This document shows positions 3,733-49,399 of a stretch of DNA of 64,000 nt, one piece after another. The notes under the pieces were generated by a model. That model was not told the origin of the DNA. It was given only the letters and a program-made list of their open reading frames with translations, and searched no databases. How positions within the stretch are numbered: position 1 is the first letter of the stretch; each line of letters begins with the position of its first letter. This stretch comes from Oceanibaculum indicum P24 (GTDB lineage: Bacteria; Pseudomonadota; Alphaproteobacteria; Oceanibaculales; Oceanibaculaceae): positions 1 through 64,000 of the forward strand of contig NZ_AMRL01000009.1 in the NCBI RefSeq assembly GCF_000299935.1. Reading direction: 5' to 3'. Position numbers and translations under genes: made by a program.

Positions 3733-4646
3733 CGCGCCTCCTCGACCATGCGGGCCACCAGCTCGGGGAAGGAGATGCCGAGATGCGCCGCCTGTTCCGG
3801 CACCAGCGAGGCCGGCGTCATGCCCGGCTGGGTGTTGACCTCCAGCAGGTACAGCGTGCCGGTTTCGGCCTCGGTGTCGTCATAGCGGAAATCGGCGCGG
3901 CTCACCCCCCGGCAGCCCAGTACGGCATGCGCCTGTTCGGCCATGCGCAGCGCCTGGTCATAGACCGGCTTCGGCAGTTCCGCCGGCACGATGTGCCGGG
4001 TCCGGCTGGTCGCCGCGTACTTGTTCTCATAGTCGTAGAAGCCCTCGTCGGTCACCAGCTCGGTCACCGCCATGGCCTTGCCGGACATCACGCCGACGGT
4101 CAGTTCGCGGCCGGGGATGTAGGTCTCCACCAGCACTTCCTCGCCGAATGGCCAGTCGCCGTTCAGCATCGGCGCGTTGCTGCCCTTATGGACGATGCGC
4201 ACGCCGATGGAGGAGCCCTCATCGATGGGTTTCAGCACATAGGGCGGCTCCATCGGATGCTCCAGAACGACCTCTTTCTTGCCGACGATGCGGCCTTCCG
4301 GGCAGCGCAGCCCGACGCCGGCGAACAGCTGCTTGGCGGCCGGCTTGTTCATGGCGATGGCCGAGGCCATGACGCCGGAATGGGTGTAGGGGATGCCCAG
4401 GATGTTCAGCAGCCCCTGCACATTGCCGTCCTCGCCGATCGGGCCGTGCAGCGCGTTGAACACAACGTCCGGCTTCAGCCGGCCCAGCACCTCGGCGATG
4501 TTGCGCTCCATGTCGATCTCGGTGACGCGGTAGCCGGCATGGCGCAGCGCCTTGGCGCATTCATGACCGCTGACCAGCGACACTTCGCGCTCGGCCGACC
4601 AGCCGCCCATCAGCACGGCGACGTGGATATTGGAACGCGCCTTCAT
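3720..4646 (-). CDS. ddlB: D-alanine--D-alanine ligase
   Basis: ATP-grasp ligase that makes the D-Ala-D-Ala dipeptide added by MurF. The 308-residue length matches DdlB. Near the N-terminus is [14 protein letters not shown]. The ATP-grasp core has [11 protein letters not shown] at about 150 and the acidic metal site [12 protein letters not shown] near the C-terminus. It starts four bases inside the murB stop (ATGA overlap) and runs 13 bases into ftsQ. Confidence 0.96.
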
Positions 4647-36567: not shown

Positions 36568-37446
36568 TCACACCCCCATCTCCTCCACCAACCTCGCCAG
36601 CTTGTCCGGGTTGCGGGTGATGTAGATGGCGGCGATGCGGCCGTCGCGTATGTCGAAGGCGGTGGTCTGCAGGATGCCGTCGCGCTCGCGGCTGAGATAG
36701 CCGGGCAGCCCGTCGATGCGCAGCGGGCGGATCAGCACGATCTGCTCCGGGCTGTATTTACGCCTTAAGCCCGCATAGAGCCGCAGGATGCGCGCCAGCC
36801 CGCGGATCGGGTTGTGGAAGGCGATCACCTTGCCGCCGCCATCGGCATGCAGCACCGCATCCTCGGCCAGCAGGGCGCTCAAACCCTGCACATCCCCCCT
36901 GGAGGAGGCGTCGAAGAAGGCGCGGGCCAGTCGCTCCCCTTCTTCCCGCCCGACAGCGTAGCGCGGCCTTGCATTGCGCACATGCCGGCGGGCGCGGGAG
37001 GCCAGCTGGCGCACGGCGGCGGGCTCGCGCTCCAGCGTCGCCGCCACCTCGCCCAGCGGCACGCCGAACACGTCATGCAGCAGGAAGGCGGCGCGCTCCA
37101 GCGGTGACAGCCGCTCCAGCGCCAGCATCAGGGTCAGGGTCAGCTCGTCGGCTCGGGGCTCCTCCTCCGGCGGCTCGGCGACCGGCTCCGGCAGCCAGGG
37201 GCCGATATAGGTCTCGCGCCTTGCGCGGGCGGATTTCAGCGCATCCAGGCACAGCCTTGTGACGATGCGGCTGAGATAGGCCGCCGGCTCCGCGACGGCG
37301 CTGCGGTCGGCGGCCTGCCAGCGCAGCCAGGCCTCCTGCACGATATCCTCGGCTTCCGCGCGGGAACCCAGCATGCGGTAGGCGAGACGCAGCAGCCGCG
37401 GCCGCTGCGCCTCGAACGCGCCTGTGAGGGCGGCGTGCGCACTCAA
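36568..37446 (-). CDS. ECF41-type RNA polymerase sigma factor
   Basis: Extracytoplasmic-function sigma factor of group ECF41. The 292 residues contain region 2 (about 10-75), region 4 (about 108-160), and a C-terminal SnoaL-like regulatory domain (about 165-292). The ECF41 hallmarks are present: WLPEP at 84-88, DGGGK at 202-206 and NPDKL at 279-283. It starts with TTG overlapping the upstream stop (TTGA), after AAGG. The promoter at 37945-37971 carries the ECF41 consensus, so the operon should be self-activated. Confidence 0.95.
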   Translation of the reverse strand: MSAHAALTGAFEAQRPRLLRLAYRMLGSRAEAEDIVQEAWLRWQAADRSAVAEPAAYLSRIVTRLCLDALKSARARRETYIGPWLPEPVAEPPEEEPRADELTLTLMLALERLSPLERAAFLLHDVFGVPLGEVAATLEREPAAVRQLASRARRHVRNARPRYAVGREEGERLARAFFDASSRGDVQGLSALLAEDAVLHADGGGKVIAFHNPIRGLARILRLYAGLRRKYSPEQIVLIRPLRIDGLPGYLSRERDGILQTTAFDIRDGRIAAIYITRNPDKLARLVEEMGV

Positions 37447-37901
37447 GCGGCCGCCTTATCCACCGGATGCGCCGCGCGGAAGCCGACCTGCAGCCGGTTC
37501 CACACATTGATGGCGCCGATGGCGATGGTCAGGTCCACCTGTTCCTCCTCGCTGAACTCGGCCTTTACCAGGGCGTAATCCTCGTCCGGCGCGCCGGTTT
37601 CGGCAAGCAGGGTCAGCGCCTCGGTCCAGGCCAGGGCGGCGCGCTCGCGCGGGGTGTAGAGCGAGGATTCGCGCCAGGCGTTCAGCATGTAGAGGCGCAT
37701 CTCGGTCTCGCCGGAGGCGCGCAGCCAGGTCGAATGCATGTGGATGCAGAAGGCGCAGCCATTGATCTGCGAGGCCCGCAGCTTCACCAGCTCCAGCAGC
37801 CCATGGTCGAGGCTGCATTTGGAGAGGGCCCCCTCCAGCGCCACCATGGCCTTGATCGGGCCGGTGCCAATTCCGTGCGGATTGTTCAGACGCGGTGTCA
37901 T
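37443..37901 (-). CDS. AhpD/carboxymuconolactone decarboxylase-like protein
   Basis: All-helical CMD-fold protein, probably a peroxidase or redox enzyme. The 152 residues have the AhpD active site NGCAFCIHMH with C49, C52 and H56. CMD proteins are one of the standard partners of ECF41 sigma factors (the carboxymuconolactone decarboxylase / oxidoreductase / epimerase set), and here the gene precedes the sigma gene in one operon. Substrate unknown. Confidence 0.92.
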   Translation of the reverse strand: MTPRLNNPHGIGTGPIKAMVALEGALSKCSLDHGLLELVKLRASQINGCAFCIHMHSTWLRASGETEMRLYMLNAWRESSLYTPRERAALAWTEALTLLAETGAPDEDYALVKAEFSEEEQVDLTIAIGAINVWNRLQVGFRAAHPVDKAAA

Positions 37902-37992: not shown

Positions 37993-38514
37993 TTACTCCG
38001 CCGCGTTACGTTTCGGCAGCACCCAGTTGGGGCGCGGGAAGTGGCAGGTATAGCCGTTGGGGTAGCGTTCCAAGTAATCCTGATGCTCCGGCTCGGCCTG
38101 CCAGAAATCGCCGGCAGGATCGACCTCCGTCACCACCCTGCCGGGCCACAGGCCGGAGGCATTCACATCGGCGATGGTGTCCAGCGCCACGCGGTGCTGT
38201 TCCTCGTTCAGATAATAGATCGCCGAACGGTAGGACGGGCCGCGATCATTGCCCTGGCGGTTCGGCGTCGTCGGGTCGTGGATCTGGAAGAAATATTCCA
38301 GGATGCGGCGGTAGCTGGTGACCGCCGGGTCGAAGACGATCTCGATGCCCTCGGCATGGGTGCCGTGGTTGCGGTAGGTCGCGTTCGGCACATCGCCGCC
38401 GGTATAGCCGACACGGGTGGACAGGATGCCGGGCTGCCGGCGGATCAGGTCCTGCATGCCCCAGAAGCAGCCGCCGGCCAGAATCGCTTTCTCGGTCATC
38501 GCTTTTTCGGTCAT
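37993..38514 (-). CDS. msrA: Peptide methionine sulfoxide reductase A
   Basis: Repairs methionine S-sulfoxide. The catalytic motif GGCFWG (C16) is near the N-terminus, followed by [24 protein letters not shown] and [10 protein letters not shown], all standard for MsrA. The length of 173 residues is normal. A second in-frame ATG at residue 6 repeats the first residues ([10 protein letters not shown]) and could be used. It follows msrB by one base. Confidence 0.96.
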
Positions 38515-38515
38515 G

Positions 38516-38959
38516 TCAGTTCTCCTTCACCTGGTCGAGATAGTCGCCATAGCCTTCTTCCGCCATACGGTCGCGCGGGATGAAGCGCAGCGAGGCGGAA
38601 TTGATGCAGTAGCGCATGCCGCCGCGGTCGCGCGGCCCGTCCGGGAAGACATGGCCCAGATGGCTGTCGCCATGGGCGGAGCGCACTTCGATGCGGATCA
38701 TGCCGTGGCTGGTGTCGCGCAGCTCCGCCACATTCGCCGGCTCGACCGGTTTGGTGAAGCTGGGCCAGCCGCAGCCGGATTCGAACTTGTCGGATGAGGC
38801 GAACAGAGGCTCGCCCGACACGATGTCGACATACAGGCCAGGCTGCTTGTTGTCGTTATACTCGCCGGTGAACGGGCGTTCGGTGCCGTTCTCCTGCGTC
38901 ACCCGGTACTGTTCGGGCGTCAGCCGGTCGATGGCGTCCTTGGTCTTGGCGTAGCGCAT
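38516..38959 (-). CDS. msrB: Peptide methionine sulfoxide reductase B
   Basis: Repairs methionine R-sulfoxide. ATG 38959 follows GAGGGA and gives 147 residues; the frame to 39028 adds no homology. The catalytic C118 lies in [11 protein letters not shown] and the likely resolving C63 in SGCGWPSF. The two zinc-binding CxxC pairs found in many MsrBs are absent, so this is the zinc-free form. It is co-transcribed with msrA. Confidence 0.96.
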
Positions 38960-39070
38960 GGGTGTCCCTCTACGGGCTGCGGAAATCTGCATCCAATATG
39001 GGGTAGGTACGCCCGCCTGCCAAAGCACGCATCACGGTTATTTGAAGATCGGCCCGTTCAGGCCCCGGTT

Positions 39071-40045
39071 TTATGCCCGGATGCTGTCGGCGTAGCTGAC
39101 GACCTGCAGCGCCGACTGCGCCACGATATCCGCCCCGATGCGGTTGAAGGCGTCGGGGTTGGCCAGCACCGCCGGGCCGCCGACGGCGATCTTCAGCCGC
39201 CTGGGGCTGGGGGTGGCGTGGATGCGCCGGATCGTCCGGGTGCATTCCTCCACCTGGTCCACCTGCCCGACGGAAATACCCAGCAGGTGATAGGGCGTGT
39301 TGGACAGGCGCTTGTGGATGGTGTCGTCCAGCTCCGTATCCACGCCGCCATCGACCACCCAGCCCATCTCGCGGAAGCAGCTCGCCACGATTGCCACGCC
39401 GATGGTGTGGGCGGCCTTGCCGGTGCGCGCCAGCAGCACCCGGCGGACGGGGCGGTCGTCCTGCGACTGCGTGCGCTGGATGGACAGGTGCGAGAGGTGG
39501 TTGATGATCATGGAGAGCCGGGTGGAGGCCACCGCGACCAGCATGAAATCGATCTCGTCGTCGCACCATTGGTCGCCAAGCCGCGCCGCGACCGGCGAGA
39601 ACAGGTGGATCGCCAGGGTCTGCATCGGCACGCCGCTGGCCTGCAGCTCCTCGATCATCGCCCGGTGCGCGCGCGGGTCGATGTCGATCAGCGCTTCCTT
39701 GAGGGCGTTGCGATAGGAAATGGCCTTGTCCGTGCCCGGCAGCTGGCTGGCCACCGGATCATGCTCGGGGTGCAGCCTTGGGTCGAAGCCAAGCCCGCAC
39801 ACGCCGGCCTCGGCGTCAGCGCCGGCATCGGCCTGCGGCGGCTCCGCCTGAGGAATCTCCGGATGGCCGGCTCCGACCATGCGCGAAACCGATTTCCGGA
39901 TGGCGTTTTCGAGAACCCCGTGGTCCCTGGCGCTCAAATGTTCAGCGCCGTGAAATCTGCCAGTCTGACCAGTATCCGAGTCTATCGGCTGGTTCGAGGA
40001 CTGGTTATCCGCACCTGATGGCCGGCCTGAATTGTCATTGGCCAT
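39071..40045 (-). CDS. B12-binding PpaA/AerR-like regulator (second copy in the cluster)
   Basis: Predicted cobalamin-binding regulator. The 324 residues have a disordered, polar N-terminus (about 1-105), a helical cap (about 110-190), and a Rossmann-type B12 domain from about 200 (GKAAHTIGVAIVASCFREMGW), where H213 is in the place of the cobalt ligand. AVGGPAVLANPDAFNRIGAD continues the fold. It resembles the ppaA product at 48263-49249 in domain order but is clearly different in sequence. It lies downstream of dxs on the same strand and has its own AGGGGG ribosome site. Confidence 0.78.
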   Translation of the reverse strand: MANDNSGRPSGADNQSSNQPIDSDTGQTGRFHGAEHLSARDHGVLENAIRKSVSRMVGAGHPEIPQAEPPQADAGADAEAGVCGLGFDPRLHPEHDPVASQLPGTDKAISYRNALKEALIDIDPRAHRAMIEELQASGVPMQTLAIHLFSPVAARLGDQWCDDEIDFMLVAVASTRLSMIINHLSHLSIQRTQSQDDRPVRRVLLARTGKAAHTIGVAIVASCFREMGWVVDGGVDTELDDTIHKRLSNTPYHLLGISVGQVDQVEECTRTIRRIHATPSPRRLKIAVGGPAVLANPDAFNRIGADIVAQSALQVVSYADSIRA

Positions 40046-40155: not shown

Positions 40156-42039
40156 CTACTCCGCTACCTGAACCCGTCTGACATGCCGGCCGTTCAACTG
40201 GCGTGCTGCCAGGGGCACCACGCTTCTGGCGGCCAGCACATCCCGCACAAGTAGGGCGATGTGGTGCGCGCTCAACCCGGCGTCTTCGTACATTTCCTCC
40301 GGTGAGGCCTGCGCGATGAACCGGTCGGGCAAGGTCATGGTGCGCAGCGCGCAACGGGAACCCAGATGCCCGTCCAGCAGCCCCCGCCCGGCGAGATGAC
40401 TGAGCACGAGCGCCGCGAAACCGCCGCTCGCTCCTTCCTCTATGGTCACCAGCAGCTCATGGGTCTCGTACAGCTCTTCCAGCAGCCCGGTATCCAACGG
40501 CTTGGCGAAGCGCGCATCCGCTACCGTCACCGGAATACCGTGCGTGGCCAGCATCTGCCGGGCCATCAGGCATTCGCCCAGCCGGCCACCGAAGGACAGC
40601 AGCGCCACCGTGCCGCCAGCCGCCACCACGCGGCCCTTGCCGATGGGCAGCGGTACGCCGGTCTCGGGCATGGCCACGCCGGTGCCTTCGCCACGGGGAT
40701 AGCGGAAGGCAATCGGTCCGCTGTCATGCGCAGCGGCTGTCGCCACCATGTTCACCAGCTCCGCCTCGTCGCTGGCCGCCATGACGGTGAAGCCGGGCAG
40801 GTTCGCCAGGTAACCCACATCGAAGGCGCCGGCATGGGTCGGGCCGTCGGCGCCGACCAGCCCGGCGCGGTCAATGGCGAAGCGGACCGGCAGCCCCTGC
40901 AGGGCGACATCATGGACGATCTGGTCGTAGCCGCGCTGCAGGAAGGTGGAATAGATCGCGCAGAACGGCTTCATGCCGCCGGCCGCCAGCCCGGCGGCGA
41001 AGGTCACGGCGTGCTGTTCGGCGATGCCGACATCGAAGGCGCGGTCGGGGAAGTGCCGGCGGAAGATATCGACGCCAGTGCCGGCCTCCATCGCGGCGGT
41101 GATGGCGATGATGCGGCTGTCCTTCTCCGCCTCCTTCACCAGCGCGCCGGCGAATACCTTTGTGTAGCTGGGCGCCGCGGCGGCGGCCTTCGCCTGCTGC
41201 CCGGTTTCGACATCGAACTTGGCCACGCCATGATATTTGTCCGCCGAGGTTTCGGCGGCATCGTAGCCCGCCCCCTTGCGGGTGATTGCATGCAGCAGCA
41301 CCGGGCCTGTGGCCTCCTCCCTGAGGGACCGCAGCTTTTCCAGCAATCCGGGCAGGTCATGACCATCCACCGGCCCGTGATAGGCAAAGCCCATCTGCGC
41401 GAAGAAGCTGCGCTCTTCGCCGGGCCGCGCGCCGAGTTCTGCCAGATAGGTCGCGAACGCCCCGGTGGACGGGCTGATCGACATGGCGTTGTCGTTCAGG
41501 ATGACGAAGATGCGCTTGCCCAGCGCGCCGGCATTGTTGATCGCCTCGAAAGCCATGCCGGCCGACATGGCGCCATCGCCAATGACGCAGACCACATCGC
41601 CCGGATCGCCGCCCAGCTCCCGCGCCATGGCGAAGCCAAGGCCGGCGGAGATGGAGGTGGAGGAATGCGCGGCCCCGAAGGGATCGTAGGGGCTTTCGGC
41701 GCGCCGGGTGAAGCCGGAGGGACCATCTTTCTTGCGCAGGCCCAGCATGCGCTCGCGGCGTCCGGTCAGAATCTTGTGCGGGTAGCACTGATGGCTGACA
41801 TCCCAGATCAGCTTGTCGTGCGGCGTGTCGAAAATCGCGTGGATTGCCAGCGTCAGCTCGATGACGCCAAGGCTGGAACCGAGGTGCCCGCCGGTCCTGG
41901 AGACGATGCGGATCGTCTCGGCCCGCAATTCGCCGGCAAGCCGGACCAGTTTCTCGGAGTCCATTGTCCGGAGGTCTTTGGGACCGGTCACGCCATCGAG
42001 CAGCGGCGTGGCGGTTACCGGTGCTGAAATCAAGCCCAT
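40156..42039 (-). CDS. dxs: 1-deoxy-D-xylulose-5-phosphate synthase
   Basis: Thiamine-diphosphate enzyme that joins pyruvate and glyceraldehyde-3-phosphate, the entry step of the MEP pathway that supplies the phytyl tail and carotenoids. ATG 42039 (627 residues) follows GGGAGGA by six bases and is preferred to the longer frame to 42120. Motifs include [16 protein letters not shown], the ThDP motif [13 protein letters not shown] and [12 protein letters not shown]-terminal transketolase motifs [15 protein letters not shown] and YPRGEG are present. Its upstream gap carries a PpsR box. Confidence 0.95.
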
Positions 42040-42477
42040 CGCATGTCCTCCCGGCAATGGACCGTCCATTTTAGTTGACGCCTGTCTGGCGCCTTTTCCA
42101 TTGCGCAGTCCGGTTGTCACCGGTGGGCCTGTCGTCTCGACTTGGTCGTCTCGACCGGGCCTGCCGGCTTCTCACCGCGACCGGGGAAGCTTCTTTCTCC
42201 GGTGACCGAACGCCTTGATGCTGAATGAAATCCGCTTTTCAGAAAGGGTGAGCGGCGTATCCCCCAGCACCGGGCGGTGTCGGCCGTCGCAACGTGGACG
42301 GTATTATGCTTCCATATTCAGCGAGACTTAATGAACTGTAAACTTTTTTTTACACACGCGGTCTGGCTTCCGGCATTTCTGTTTCTTGGTAATCCCGTTC
42401 CGACAACCTATGTTGACAGCAGACACAAGGGGCAGGGCCGGTTCCCGGATAGGATTGCCCCGGAAAGGCGAAACCGT
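42040..42477. other. 438-base divergent regulatory gap between dxs and tspO
   Basis: It contains the PpsR box at 42337-42354. On the dxs side a CATAAT-like -10 at about 42304-42309 (minus strand) is possible, but its -35 is poor. The tspO frame is open through part of the gap; the codons there show no TspO homology. Confidence 0.5.
42337..42354. promoter_or_regulatory. PpsR/CrtJ box in the dxs/tspO gap
   Basis: TGTAAACTTTTTTTTACA is an exact TGT-N12-ACA with the T-rich right half seen in PpsR targets. It is about 300 bases upstream of dxs and 124 bases upstream of the chosen tspO start. Confidence 0.75.
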
Positions 42478-42927
42478 TTGATCTCCGCAATCGCGTTCAT
42501 TCTCATCGTGGTCGCCACCGCCTCCAGCGGCGCCATCTTCAAGCCCGGCCCCTGGTACGAGACCCTGCGAAAGCCCGCCTGGACCCCGCCGAAATGGGCG
42601 TTCCCGGTGGTCTGGACGATCCTCTACATGATGATCGCCTATGCCGGCTGGATCGTCTGGCAGCAGGTCGGATGGTCTGCGGCGATGCTGGCCTGGGGCG
42701 TGCAGATCCTGGCCAATGCCGCCTGGTCCTGGCTGTTCTTCGGGCGCCGGCGCATGGATCTGGCGCTGGCCGATATCGGTGTGCTGTGGCTGTCGGTTGC
42801 CGCCTTCATCGTGTTGGCCTGGCCGATTTCGACGCTGGCCGCGCTGCTGTTCCTGCCTTATCTCGTCTGGGTCAGCACGGCGGGCGCGCTGAACTATTCG
42901 GTGCTGCGGCTGAATTCCGCCCGCTGA
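42478..42927 (+). CDS. tspO: TspO/MBR-family tryptophan-rich sensory protein
   Basis: Five-helix membrane protein that binds porphyrins; in Rhodobacter it modulates expression of photosynthesis genes with PpsR. TTG 42478 after GGAAAGG gives 149 residues starting with the first membrane helix, the usual TspO length. ATG 42331 would add 49 residues without homology and overlap the PpsR box. Family motifs: KPGPWYETLRKPAWTPPKW, FPVVWTILYMMIAYA, NAAWSWLFFGRRR and LPYLVWVSTAGALNY. Its end overlaps the end of the convergent small gene by 34 bases. Confidence 0.88.
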   Translation: MISAIAFILIVVATASSGAIFKPGPWYETLRKPAWTPPKWAFPVVWTILYMMIAYAGWIVWQQVGWSAAMLAWGVQILANAAWSWLFFGRRRMDLALADIGVLWLSVAAFIVLAWPISTLAALLFLPYLVWVSTAGALNYSVLRLNSAR

Positions 42928-46765: not shown

Positions 46766-46783
46766 TGTCAATTTTAATTTACA
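46766..46783. promoter_or_regulatory. PpsR/CrtJ box upstream of bchG
   Basis: TGTCAATTTTAATTTACA is an exact TGT-N12-ACA, close to the ideal TGTcaN(..)TTTACA form. On the minus strand it also supplies a TTGACA -35-like hexamer for the bchG operon, so PpsR bound here would block the promoter. Confidence 0.85.
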
Positions 46784-46820: not shown

Positions 46821-48266
46821 TCAGGAGGCGGAGGCAGGCCGGTAATCCTCCAGCCCATGCCGGCGTAGCTTGATGTAGAGGCTCTGCCGCGACAGACCGA
46901 GGATTTCGGCGGCGCCGGCGCGGTTGTTGTTGGTCTGGTCGAGCGCCGCCTCGATGCAGATCTTCTCGATCACATCCAGAGATTCACGGATCAGCTCCTT
47001 CAGCGGCACCTTGCCAACCAGGCTGGCAAAACCCTCGGCCTGATCGACGGAGCGCGGCGGCGGCAGGGCGATGCGCTCATTGCTGAGGACCTGCGGGATC
47101 ACCAGGATCTGCACCGTGCCGGTATCCGGGTTCTGCCGCGCCGAGATTGAGACCTGCCGGTCGCCTGACAGATTGTCGGTCAGCACGGAGGAGAAGCCGC
47201 GCACCACGACCTCGTCCACCAGCCGCGAGAAGAGGACGTGGATATCGATGGCGGCCTTGGTGAACCAGGAACCGATATGCCGGCCGATCACCTGGCTGAG
47301 CGATGGCGCATGGACGAAGTCGAGGAACAAAGTGTTCGCCGCCTGAATCTGGCCGTCTGCGTCGGTCTGCACCGCAGCCTCGGGCACGCCGGACAGGTCG
47401 ATGGCGTGACCGACTGCTGGCTCGGCGCCACGCTGCAGGCGGATTTCCTGCGCGCCGGAGGAGGGCCACAGCGAGACGAAGAGGTTGGTGACACCATTTT
47501 CGCGGTAGGAGCGCAGGCTGAGCGACATCTCCTCGCCCTTGGCGCTCAGAATACTGTCGATCAGCACGGGGCTGGCGCTGTGGCGGGCCTCGCTGATCGC
47601 GTCGGTCAGCCGCTCGCGCTCCTGCCTGCCGAAGAAATCACGCATCGGCTTGCCGGTCAGGCTGCCCTTTCCGGCGCCCAGCAGCGTCAGGGCGGCGGCG
47701 TTGGCGTCCAGCACCGACTTGCGGTCGCCATCCAGCATCAGATGGGCGACGGCGGACAGCTTGAAGGCGGTGCGGTAGCGCGCTTCCGCTTCCTGCAGCG
47801 CGCGGTAATCCGCCTCCATCGCCATCTGGGTCTCGACCAGGCGCTGCTGGTCGAGCGATTGCTGCCGCAGGTCGCGGCCGATGACCAGCGTGAAAGGCAG
47901 CCAGTCGGCCCGGTGGGCGGAATAGACCACCGGCAGGTCGGGCCTGCCGTCAACGCGGTGATTGACCTGATAGCCGCGCGCCGGCCGGTTCTTCGTATCC
48001 GGTGCCAGCATCGCCTCGACTTTGGGCACTGACTCGATGGTCACGCAATCGGCCAGGCGCTTGCCGGCGAAGCCGGTCACGCCCCACTCGTCCAGCCTGG
48101 GATCGGAAATGCGGATGCTCGATATGATTCCCTTGTCATCGACGAACATGACGATGTCCGCGCCGAGAGAGATCAGGGACACCAGGGCATCCGGGTCAAG
48201 CTTCTTCAGGAGGCCGCCATCGACCCCTTGAATTTCGCTCCCAGGATGACCGTTGGGGGGTGTCAT
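46821..48266 (-). CDS. ppsR: PpsR/CrtJ, redox-responsive repressor of photosynthesis genes
   Basis: PAS-containing DNA-binding repressor. ATG 48266 overlaps the ppaA stop as ATGA and gives 481 residues; the frame to 48353 only overlaps ppaA. Three PAS-like regions (about 20-130, 155-265 and 305-400) are followed by a Fis-type helix-turn-helix (NNRAGAAEILGLSRQSLYIKL, about 450-470). A cysteine just before it (EKICIEAALDQT) matches the redox cysteine C420 of CrtJ. A second cysteine lies near the N-terminus (LADCVTIES). Confidence 0.94.
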   Translation of the reverse strand: MTPPNGHPGSEIQGVDGGLLKKLDPDALVSLISLGADIVMFVDDKGIISSIRISDPRLDEWGVTGFAGKRLADCVTIESVPKVEAMLAPDTKNRPARGYQVNHRVDGRPDLPVVYSAHRADWLPFTLVIGRDLRQQSLDQQRLVETQMAMEADYRALQEAEARYRTAFKLSAVAHLMLDGDRKSVLDANAAALTLLGAGKGSLTGKPMRDFFGRQERERLTDAISEARHSASPVLIDSILSAKGEEMSLSLRSYRENGVTNLFVSLWPSSGAQEIRLQRGAEPAVGHAIDLSGVPEAAVQTDADGQIQAANTLFLDFVHAPSLSQVIGRHIGSWFTKAAIDIHVLFSRLVDEVVVRGFSSVLTDNLSGDRQVSISARQNPDTGTVQILVIPQVLSNERIALPPPRSVDQAEGFASLVGKVPLKELIRESLDVIEKICIEAALDQTNNNRAGAAEILGLSRQSLYIKLRRHGLEDYRPASAS

Positions 48267-49249
48267 GGGCTGAGCCAATCTATGCCGCTTGAGCTTACAA
48301 TTGCAGTCCTGCCGGTATCCGTCTTTCCGGCAGGAGGGGTGCCTGGTGCACAAGCCTGTTGATTAAGTTCTTCTAGATCATAAAAGCTTTTACAAATCCT
48401 GGCAGCTGAATAGACGCTGTCACAGACGCAGTCAATCCCTATTTCTACAAGAAAATCAACGGATTTCAAGGCGGCTGCGCCACCGACCACCAGGGGGAGT
48501 CTGCGGCCAGCGCTAAGCCTCCTGATCTGGCTGACGAGGTGCTGGAATTCACCGGCCAGCCGCTCATTGCTCCAGCCAATGCAGACGACATCCGCGCGCG
48601 CCACGGTGGCGGCCAGCATGGCGGCATTTTTCGGGCCTGGATCGACCACGGTCCGCGACCAGCCCAGCGTGTCGAACAGCAGGCCCAGCAGATGGGTTGT
48701 CAGCGTGTGCTGCTCGCCCTGGGGCGTCATCAGGGCGGCGAAAGGCCTGATCGTGGTGCCAACCGGATTCCGGGTCTCCATGGCAAAGGTCTGGATCAGG
48801 TCCTGCAGGCGGGCCGTTCCGATGGTGACATCGATGAAGTCGCAGCTGTCCCCGACCCATCGTTCGCCGAGCTGGCGGGCGGCGGCTTCGATGAACAGCG
48901 CCTTCATATAGTCGGGCCGGCCTGCCGGCAGCTTATGCTCGATAAAGGATTTGAGAACAGCCGCCCGCGTGCCCGGCGCCAGAATGAGGTCTTGAAACTG
49001 GGCGAGGGGCTTCCGGTAAAGACGGTCGTGTTCCAGACCCAGGTCATACATTGCCGCAAGGTTCCCGGCCATCATGGGCGCCACCGTCCCTTGCAGAATG
49101 CGGCGGAGTTTCTCTCTTTCACCCGGTTTTAAGTAAGCGTTCCCGGCTTCACATGCAATAGCGCGCATATGCCAGGCAGCGATATCCGCCGGTCCTGCGA
49201 AGGCCGGTTCGAATTCGGCCAAAGCTGTGTCGGTTCTGTCCATCGTCAC
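48263..49249 (-). CDS. ppaA: PpaA/AerR-type B12-binding antirepressor
   Basis: Partner of PpsR that binds cobalamin (or heme) and relieves repression. The 328 residues have a helical cap (about 25-160) and a B12-binding Rossmann domain (about 165-290) with GEQHTLTTHLLGLLFDTLGW, H181 being the likely ligand. PLVVGGAAALKSVDFLVEIG follows. It forms one operon with ppsR and is divergent from bchF; the shared gap carries two degenerate PpsR boxes. Confidence 0.9.
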   Translation of the reverse strand: MTMDRTDTALAEFEPAFAGPADIAAWHMRAIACEAGNAYLKPGEREKLRRILQGTVAPMMAGNLAAMYDLGLEHDRLYRKPLAQFQDLILAPGTRAAVLKSFIEHKLPAGRPDYMKALFIEAAARQLGERWVGDSCDFIDVTIGTARLQDLIQTFAMETRNPVGTTIRPFAALMTPQGEQHTLTTHLLGLLFDTLGWSRTVVDPGPKNAAMLAATVARADVVCIGWSNERLAGEFQHLVSQIRRLSAGRRLPLVVGGAAALKSVDFLVEIGIDCVCDSVYSAARICKSFYDLEELNQQACAPGTPPAGKTDTGRTAIVSSSGIDWLSP

Positions 49250-49365: not shown

Positions 49366-49399
49366 TGTAAACAATCTTATACGTCAAAGAAAGTTGACA
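49366..49399. promoter_or_regulatory. Tandem degenerate PpsR boxes in the ppaA/bchF gap
   Basis: TGT-N12-ACG (49366-49383) is followed with a 2-base overlap by CGT-N12-ACA (49382-49399); each has one mismatch in the TGT/ACA consensus. A TTGACA at 49394-49399 with TTACTC 17 bases on could drive bchF. Paired boxes are usual for PpsR control of bch promoters. Confidence 0.65.

Follow-up and report, generated by a model that had tools for sequence, protein, structure and literature searches.

A conserved candidate PpsR operator over the promoter-like sequence of dxs in the photosynthesis gene cluster of Oceanibaculum indicum P24

The binding sites of the photosynthesis repressor PpsR have been mapped by ChIP-seq in Rhodobacter sphaeroides, where its control reaches tspO by way of the crtIB-tspO operon (PMC4344238). 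dxs is not among the targets in the ChIP table of that paper. The R. sphaeroides dxsA gene has been described as a target of PrrA (PMC4263372), and the Roseobacter clade has its dxs downstream of puf (PMC3176799). In Dinoroseobacter shibae, a PpsR motif placed over the predicted -35 of bchF represses the gene, and mutation of the half-sites derepresses it (PMC10890935). PpsR often uses two sites (PMC4452267), and AerR and AppA are antirepressors of PpsR/CrtJ (PMC5362033; PMC4344238). The presence of dxs in the cluster, dxsA as a PrrA target and crtIB-tspO as a PpsR target are thus already known. Among the matches listed for PpsR or CrtJ together with dxs, in literature outside subscription journals, none names dxs as a PpsR target; PpsR and dxs both occur in a paper on lycopene in E. 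coli (PMC3626847) and in one on plant carotenoids (PMC10515021).

We analysed a window of 64,000 nucleotides (64 kb, G+C about 67%) of O. indicum P24, positions 1 to 64,000 of contig NZ_AMRL01000009.1. It contains a photosynthesis cluster comprising dxs, tspO, bchP, pucC, bchG, ppsR, an aerR-like gene, bchFNBHLM, lhaA, puhABC and acsF; pucC and lhaA are presumed identities, named by position only from the gene order in other clusters. Beyond the window, the same contig carries puhE, hemA (5-aminolevulinate synthase), idi, pufC, pufL, bchZ, bchX and bchC and, further on, a crtE-like gene, crtD, a crtI-family gene, bchO-like and bchD-like genes and bchI (the crtE-, bchO- and bchD-like matches are below cut-off). 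The ppsR gene (46821..48266, minus strand) scores 295.7 bits against TIGR02040 (cut-off 275.4) and matches the solved PpsR structure 4hh2 (E 5.5e-34), and the C-terminal helix LGLSRQSLY of its product is near-invariant among the loci compared. An aerR/ppaA-like gene (48263..49249, minus strand), which matches AerR and whose true start is uncertain, overlaps the start of ppsR.

The dxs gene (40156..42039, minus strand) has its ATG at 42039, preceded by GGGAGGA, and diverges from tspO (42478..42927, plus strand, TTG start at 42478), which is identified by a best family match of 157.7 bits, below the model cut-off of 180. An exact TGT-N12-ACA had been reported for the 438-bp gap between them in an earlier note on this DNA, and we find it at 42337..42354 as the 18-bp inverted repeat TGTAAACTTTTTTTTACA (minus strand TGTAAAAAAAAGTTTACA; the site itself has no orientation), with a 6-bp dyad TGTAAA-N6-TTTACA. 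Like the R. sphaeroides PpsR operators, it is an 18-bp TGT-N12-ACA dyad with an A-rich core, here in a predicted promoter region of a photosynthesis cluster, and its score is within the known range (PMC4344238). It closely resembles the ChIP-verified R. sphaeroides crtE site, TGTAAGAAAAAGTTGACA, although its half-sites are TGTAAA and TTTACA, as against TGTC and TGACA in most sites of the table in that paper (PMC4344238). The placement of dxs inside the photosynthesis cluster is shared with R. sphaeroides, whose dxsA is controlled by a photosynthesis regulator, PrrA (PMC4263372). It differs from the Roseobacter clade (PMC3176799) in that dxs is away from puf and has promoter-like sequence and a PpsR-type box of its own.

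By itself, TGT-N12-ACA carries little signal. It is expected 0.07 times in the dxs/tspO gap. The window has 11 copies where 4.3 would be expected, a number that no shuffle out of 100 reached, but genome-wide the pattern is near chance, with 411 occurrences against 393 for the backward (reversed) control, and we rejected its count as sufficient evidence. We therefore built a matrix from the R. sphaeroides PpsR ChIP-seq sites, using 13 of the 19 sites in Table 2 of PMC4344238; sites 14-19 were left out, two being at genes that are not differentially expressed and four not being upstream of annotated genes. Scanning took in 103 kb of this contig together with 2.5 kb at the second dxs of the genome. 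The full 18-bp site is far from chance. TGTAAA-N6-TTTACA is found a single time in the 3.95-Mb genome, and the box scores 23.2 bits, rank 2 in the 64 kb, where the 13 known sites score 10.0-25.5 bits when each is left out in turn. The probability per position of such a score is 5.9e-9 on the window background, 4e-8 on that of the gap and 2.8e-7 on that of the local AT-rich 120 bp. An 8-site matrix taken from the same cluster, with the dxs box excluded, again places the box at rank 2; this matrix is not fully independent, its sites having first been found with the 13-site matrix.

The other high-scoring sites are in the photosynthesis cluster. Only one match of at least 11 bits (11.1) falls in the 1-38 kb part of the window, outside the cluster, compared with seven in 38-64 kb. 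Rank 1 is the bchG box (46766..46783, 27.4 bits) and rank 3 a bchF site at 49382 (20.8 bits). Ranks 4 and 5 are both in the dxs/tspO gap, which thus holds three of the top five matches in the 64 kb: CGTCCATTTTAGTTGACG (42063..42080, 15.1 bits), separated from the ATG of dxs by 23 bp, and CGACAACCTATGTTGACA (42401..42418, 13.5 bits), separated from the TTG of tspO by 59 bp. Neither of these weaker sites is conserved, and their probabilities per position on the local background are 5e-5 and 1e-4, respectively, so they may be chance matches. No conserved second PpsR site was found in the dxs/tspO gap across the relatives, in most of which the box is single. Eight sites reach at least 20 bits in the 103 kb. 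Besides the dxs box and those of bchG and bchF, there is a pair ahead of bchC, another pair between the crtE-like gene and crtD, and a single site at the start of bchI; the members of each pair are 26 bp apart. Some of these other sites have TGTAAA or TTTACA half-sites as well, and the pair at crtD resembles the dxs box in its TGTAAA half-sites.

Two further site arrangements are worth recording. The reference sites of bchF/aerR are a pair of PpsR-like sites (49366..49399) that overlap by 2 bp and are 16 bp apart centre to centre, compared with published spacers of 8 or 9 bp; this arrangement is kept across several lineages (L007-L013, L015, L016, L022, L027, L032 and L033). At bchG of Hoeflea (L022, 7658-7694; L028, 2369-2405), TGTAAAAAAACATTTACA, which is nearly the dxs box, lies 1 bp from a TGTCAA-type site.

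A BchP scan of genomes yielded 80 loci, from which 11 relatives (L007-L017) were chosen by a Dxs match like that of the window before any look for the box. These are Nitratireductor, Rhizobium, Allorhizobium, Agrobacterium and metagenome-assembled genomes (MAGs) of Niveispirillum, Phyllobacteriaceae and Porphyrobacter. The box is present in 11 of 11; the 18-mer is identical in nine and one base off in L014 and L016, and two further genomes (G177 and G272) have it in its L014 form. Across 14 loci, the window and these 13 relatives, pairwise identity is 97% in the box, 33% in the 100 bp upstream, 53% in the 17-bp spacer that follows, 75% in the -10-like hexamer and 38% beyond (96, 27, 37, 67 and 29%, respectively, among six divergent loci), and the flanks of the 18-mer are unalignable among the relatives. 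The distance from the box to dxs is about 115-138 bp in 13 relatives, as extrapolated from match starts, and 297 bp in the window. The box varies in 2 of 18 columns (14 loci), compared with 6 for the bchG box (11 loci) and 4 for the bchF box (10 loci).

When other loci with a Dxs match are taken in, the box is found in 14 of 22. It is absent from dxs in L045, L048, L055, L065, L084 and L085, which represent other lineages and arrangements (at most 5.9 bits); in L027 the site at dxs is a weak one (14.2 bits). In L079, a betaproteobacterial MAG (Burkholderiales), bchI and dxs are divergent, and the interval between them (4230-4457) holds two strong boxes, of 24.9 and 23.7 bits. This is apparently an independent link between dxs and PpsR, although the 21 kb of this locus yielded no ppsR. 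Within the class, PpsR (TIGR02040, E up to 1e-40) was detected in 26 of 385 genomes. The longer pattern TGTAAAWAAWAGTTTACA is found in three of the 385, all of which are among the 26, and in each it stands in front of dxs; its distance to ppsR is about 4.5 kb in the window and about 5.1 kb in the other two, G177 and G272. TGTAAA-N6-TTTACA was not found in three congeners, nor were BchP (E up to 1e-100) and PpsR. The window BchP shares 67-70% identity with the BchP of Rhizobiaceae and other groups; gain of the cluster by transfer, or its repeated loss, may account for this pattern. One of the relatives, L017, is labelled Porphyrobacter; its cluster resembles that of the Rhizobium loci, its dxs is more divergent (64%), and this contig is possibly mis-binned or chimeric.

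Towards dxs, the near half of the box is itself a -35-like hexamer, TTTACA (42337..42342, minus strand), followed after 17 bp by a -10-like hexamer, GAATAT (42314..42319, minus strand). TTTACA, the 17-bp interval and a -10-like hexamer are found in 14 of 14 loci, the hexamer being GANNAT in 13 and AATCAT in L016. A simple promoter scan called no promoter in the dxs/tspO gap, so the dxs promoter is predicted here from this conservation and spacing. As this -35-like hexamer coincides with one of the two half-sites, it would be covered by any protein bound to the box. The arrangement is like that of D. shibae bchF, where a PpsR motif overlaps the predicted -35; in contrast to the four motifs there, two of them tested by mutation, dxs has one strong candidate motif here, single in most relatives (PMC10890935). 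Four genomes of the genus, this one among them, each carry a dxs, to which this genome adds the copy in the cluster. At the other copy (match C7:48636-50516), no box was found with the matrix on C7:46500-49000 (best 9.0).

The gene behind dxs (39071..40045, minus strand) begins 110 bp after it and encodes a B12-binding protein resembling AerR and the SCHIC part of AppA. The protein has a PF02310 domain (E 4e-10, over the cut-off), and the nearest proteins of solved structure are AerR (7te2, E 5.6e-17) and AppA (4heh, E 2e-5). No terminator or promoter was called between the two genes, which probably form one operon. An AerR-like gene is found behind dxs in 12 of 13 relatives (L007-L016, L112 and L113; it was not found in L017), so that the clade has a second gene of this type apart from the one next to ppsR; in the window the two proteins are 26% identical over 200 positions. 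With an AerR/AppA-like gene following dxs, control by the box may extend to an antirepressor. The AerR-like gene is itself followed immediately, on its own strand, by msrA and msrB (37993-39028). At 36568-37901, a sigma-70 region 2/4 protein carrying a SnoaL domain adjoins a carboxymuconolactone-decarboxylase-like gene, an arrangement that we take to be as in ECF41-type systems.

We consider that the 18-mer is very probably the PpsR operator of the cluster copy of dxs and that it would repress by covering the -35. The matrix scores, the conservation in 13 relatives, the overlap with the -35-like hexamer and the co-occurrence with PpsR give good support to the proposal of the earlier note that dxs is under a PpsR box. 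That note had gone further and joined dxs, tspO and bch in one circuit; of this, the dxs part is well supported, and tspO finds no support as a conserved target, so that the proposed circuit holds only in part. The box might serve both genes, with PpsR at 42337, possibly together with 42063 and 42401, closing the two divergent promoters, a reading that overlaps ours with respect to dxs. In the window, 123 bp lie between the box and tspO, and the crowding of top-ranking matches in this short gap would suit such a role, as would the distances between the sites (46 and 256 bp), which are in the range of the distant Rba. capsulatus pairs (76 and 240 bp, PMC4452267). The relatives point the other way. 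A c-type cytochrome frame, co-directional with dxs, lies across the box from dxs in 10 of 11 (L008-L017; identified by HMM in L008 with NF043008, E 4e-28, 98 bits against a cut-off of 240, and by eye in L008-L017). In nine of the 11 it separates tspO from the box, and in L016, where tspO is elsewhere, it stands between bchP and the box. The box is therefore an element of dxs, and tspO as its conserved partner is rejected. No such frame is present in the gaps of the window and L007, so the box adjoins tspO in these, the only two loci in which it is kept next to that gene. The tspO upstream regions of the other scorable inverted loci (L020 left out) reach at most 8.0 bits, except in L007, where the box is about 160 bp away; TGT-N12-ACA is absent upstream of tspO in L018, L032 and L033. 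In 33 loci tspO follows bchP on the same strand. Unlike the R. sphaeroides arrangement, with its box at crtI and an operon (PMC4344238), tspO stands alone here and is convergent with bchP. With the two weak sites poorly distinguished from the local background, we regard joint control of dxs and tspO as rather unlikely; for the window itself, PpsR control of tspO is possible, given the closeness of the box and the nearer, though poor and unconserved, site at 42401-42418.

The rigidity of the dxs box raises a different question, as it exceeds what PpsR alone should require, and the shared -35 accounts for just one half of it. A regulator other than PpsR could bind the 18-mer, its near-total conservation reflecting the taste of that protein; the nearly fixed core, and a degree of conservation that exceeds that of the bchG and bchF boxes, would agree with this. 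Such a regulator is improbable, however, considering that the dyad occurs once in the genome and is absent from three congeners without the cluster genes sought, that the longer pattern is confined to genomes with PpsR (three of three), and that the box fits PpsR matrices built without it. It is still harder to credit that the box is simply a strong A-tract promoter element, an UP element with a -35 and no repressor. The conserved -10-like hexamer 17 bp after TTTACA agrees with a promoter, but the far half, TGTAAA, would be unneeded for one and is nevertheless invariant in 14 loci, forming a perfect 6-bp dyad with the -35. A chance match in an AT-rich gap, which the near-chance genome-wide count of the bare pattern might bring to mind, is refuted, because the 18-mer is conserved in 14 loci despite unalignable flanks. 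What does count against a simple PpsR view is that the repressor often binds pairs of sites and that the dxs box is mostly single in the relatives. The dxs loci of other lineages that lack a box, the negative promoter scan of the gap and the absence of dxs from the R. sphaeroides ChIP table also speak against it. Repression of the cluster dxs by PpsR at this box is nevertheless the reading we prefer, and the box appears to be a well-supported new candidate member of the PpsR regulon rather than a new kind of system.

Under repressing conditions of oxygen or light, PpsR on the box would exclude RNA polymerase from the -35, turning off dxs and probably the AerR/AppA-like gene behind it. On relief of PpsR, isoprenoid supply would rise together with bch and crt expression. 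A more speculative extension, which we think unlikely on present sequence evidence, is a feedback module in which PpsR controls an operon of dxs and a second AerR/AppA-like B12 antirepressor, the rigid 18-mer being recognized jointly by PpsR, the antirepressor and RNA polymerase. The second AerR-like protein may then act back on PpsR. If such a module exists, derepression would raise isoprenoid supply and further relieve PpsR, and precursor flow, cobalamin/light sensing and the pigment genes would be joined in one loop. If the operator itself is as we predict, the entry to isoprenoid synthesis would be directly under the photosynthesis repressor, with the other dxs copy having no such box. The conservation of the box in the relatives suggests that precursor supply may be switched together with pigment synthesis in these bacteria.
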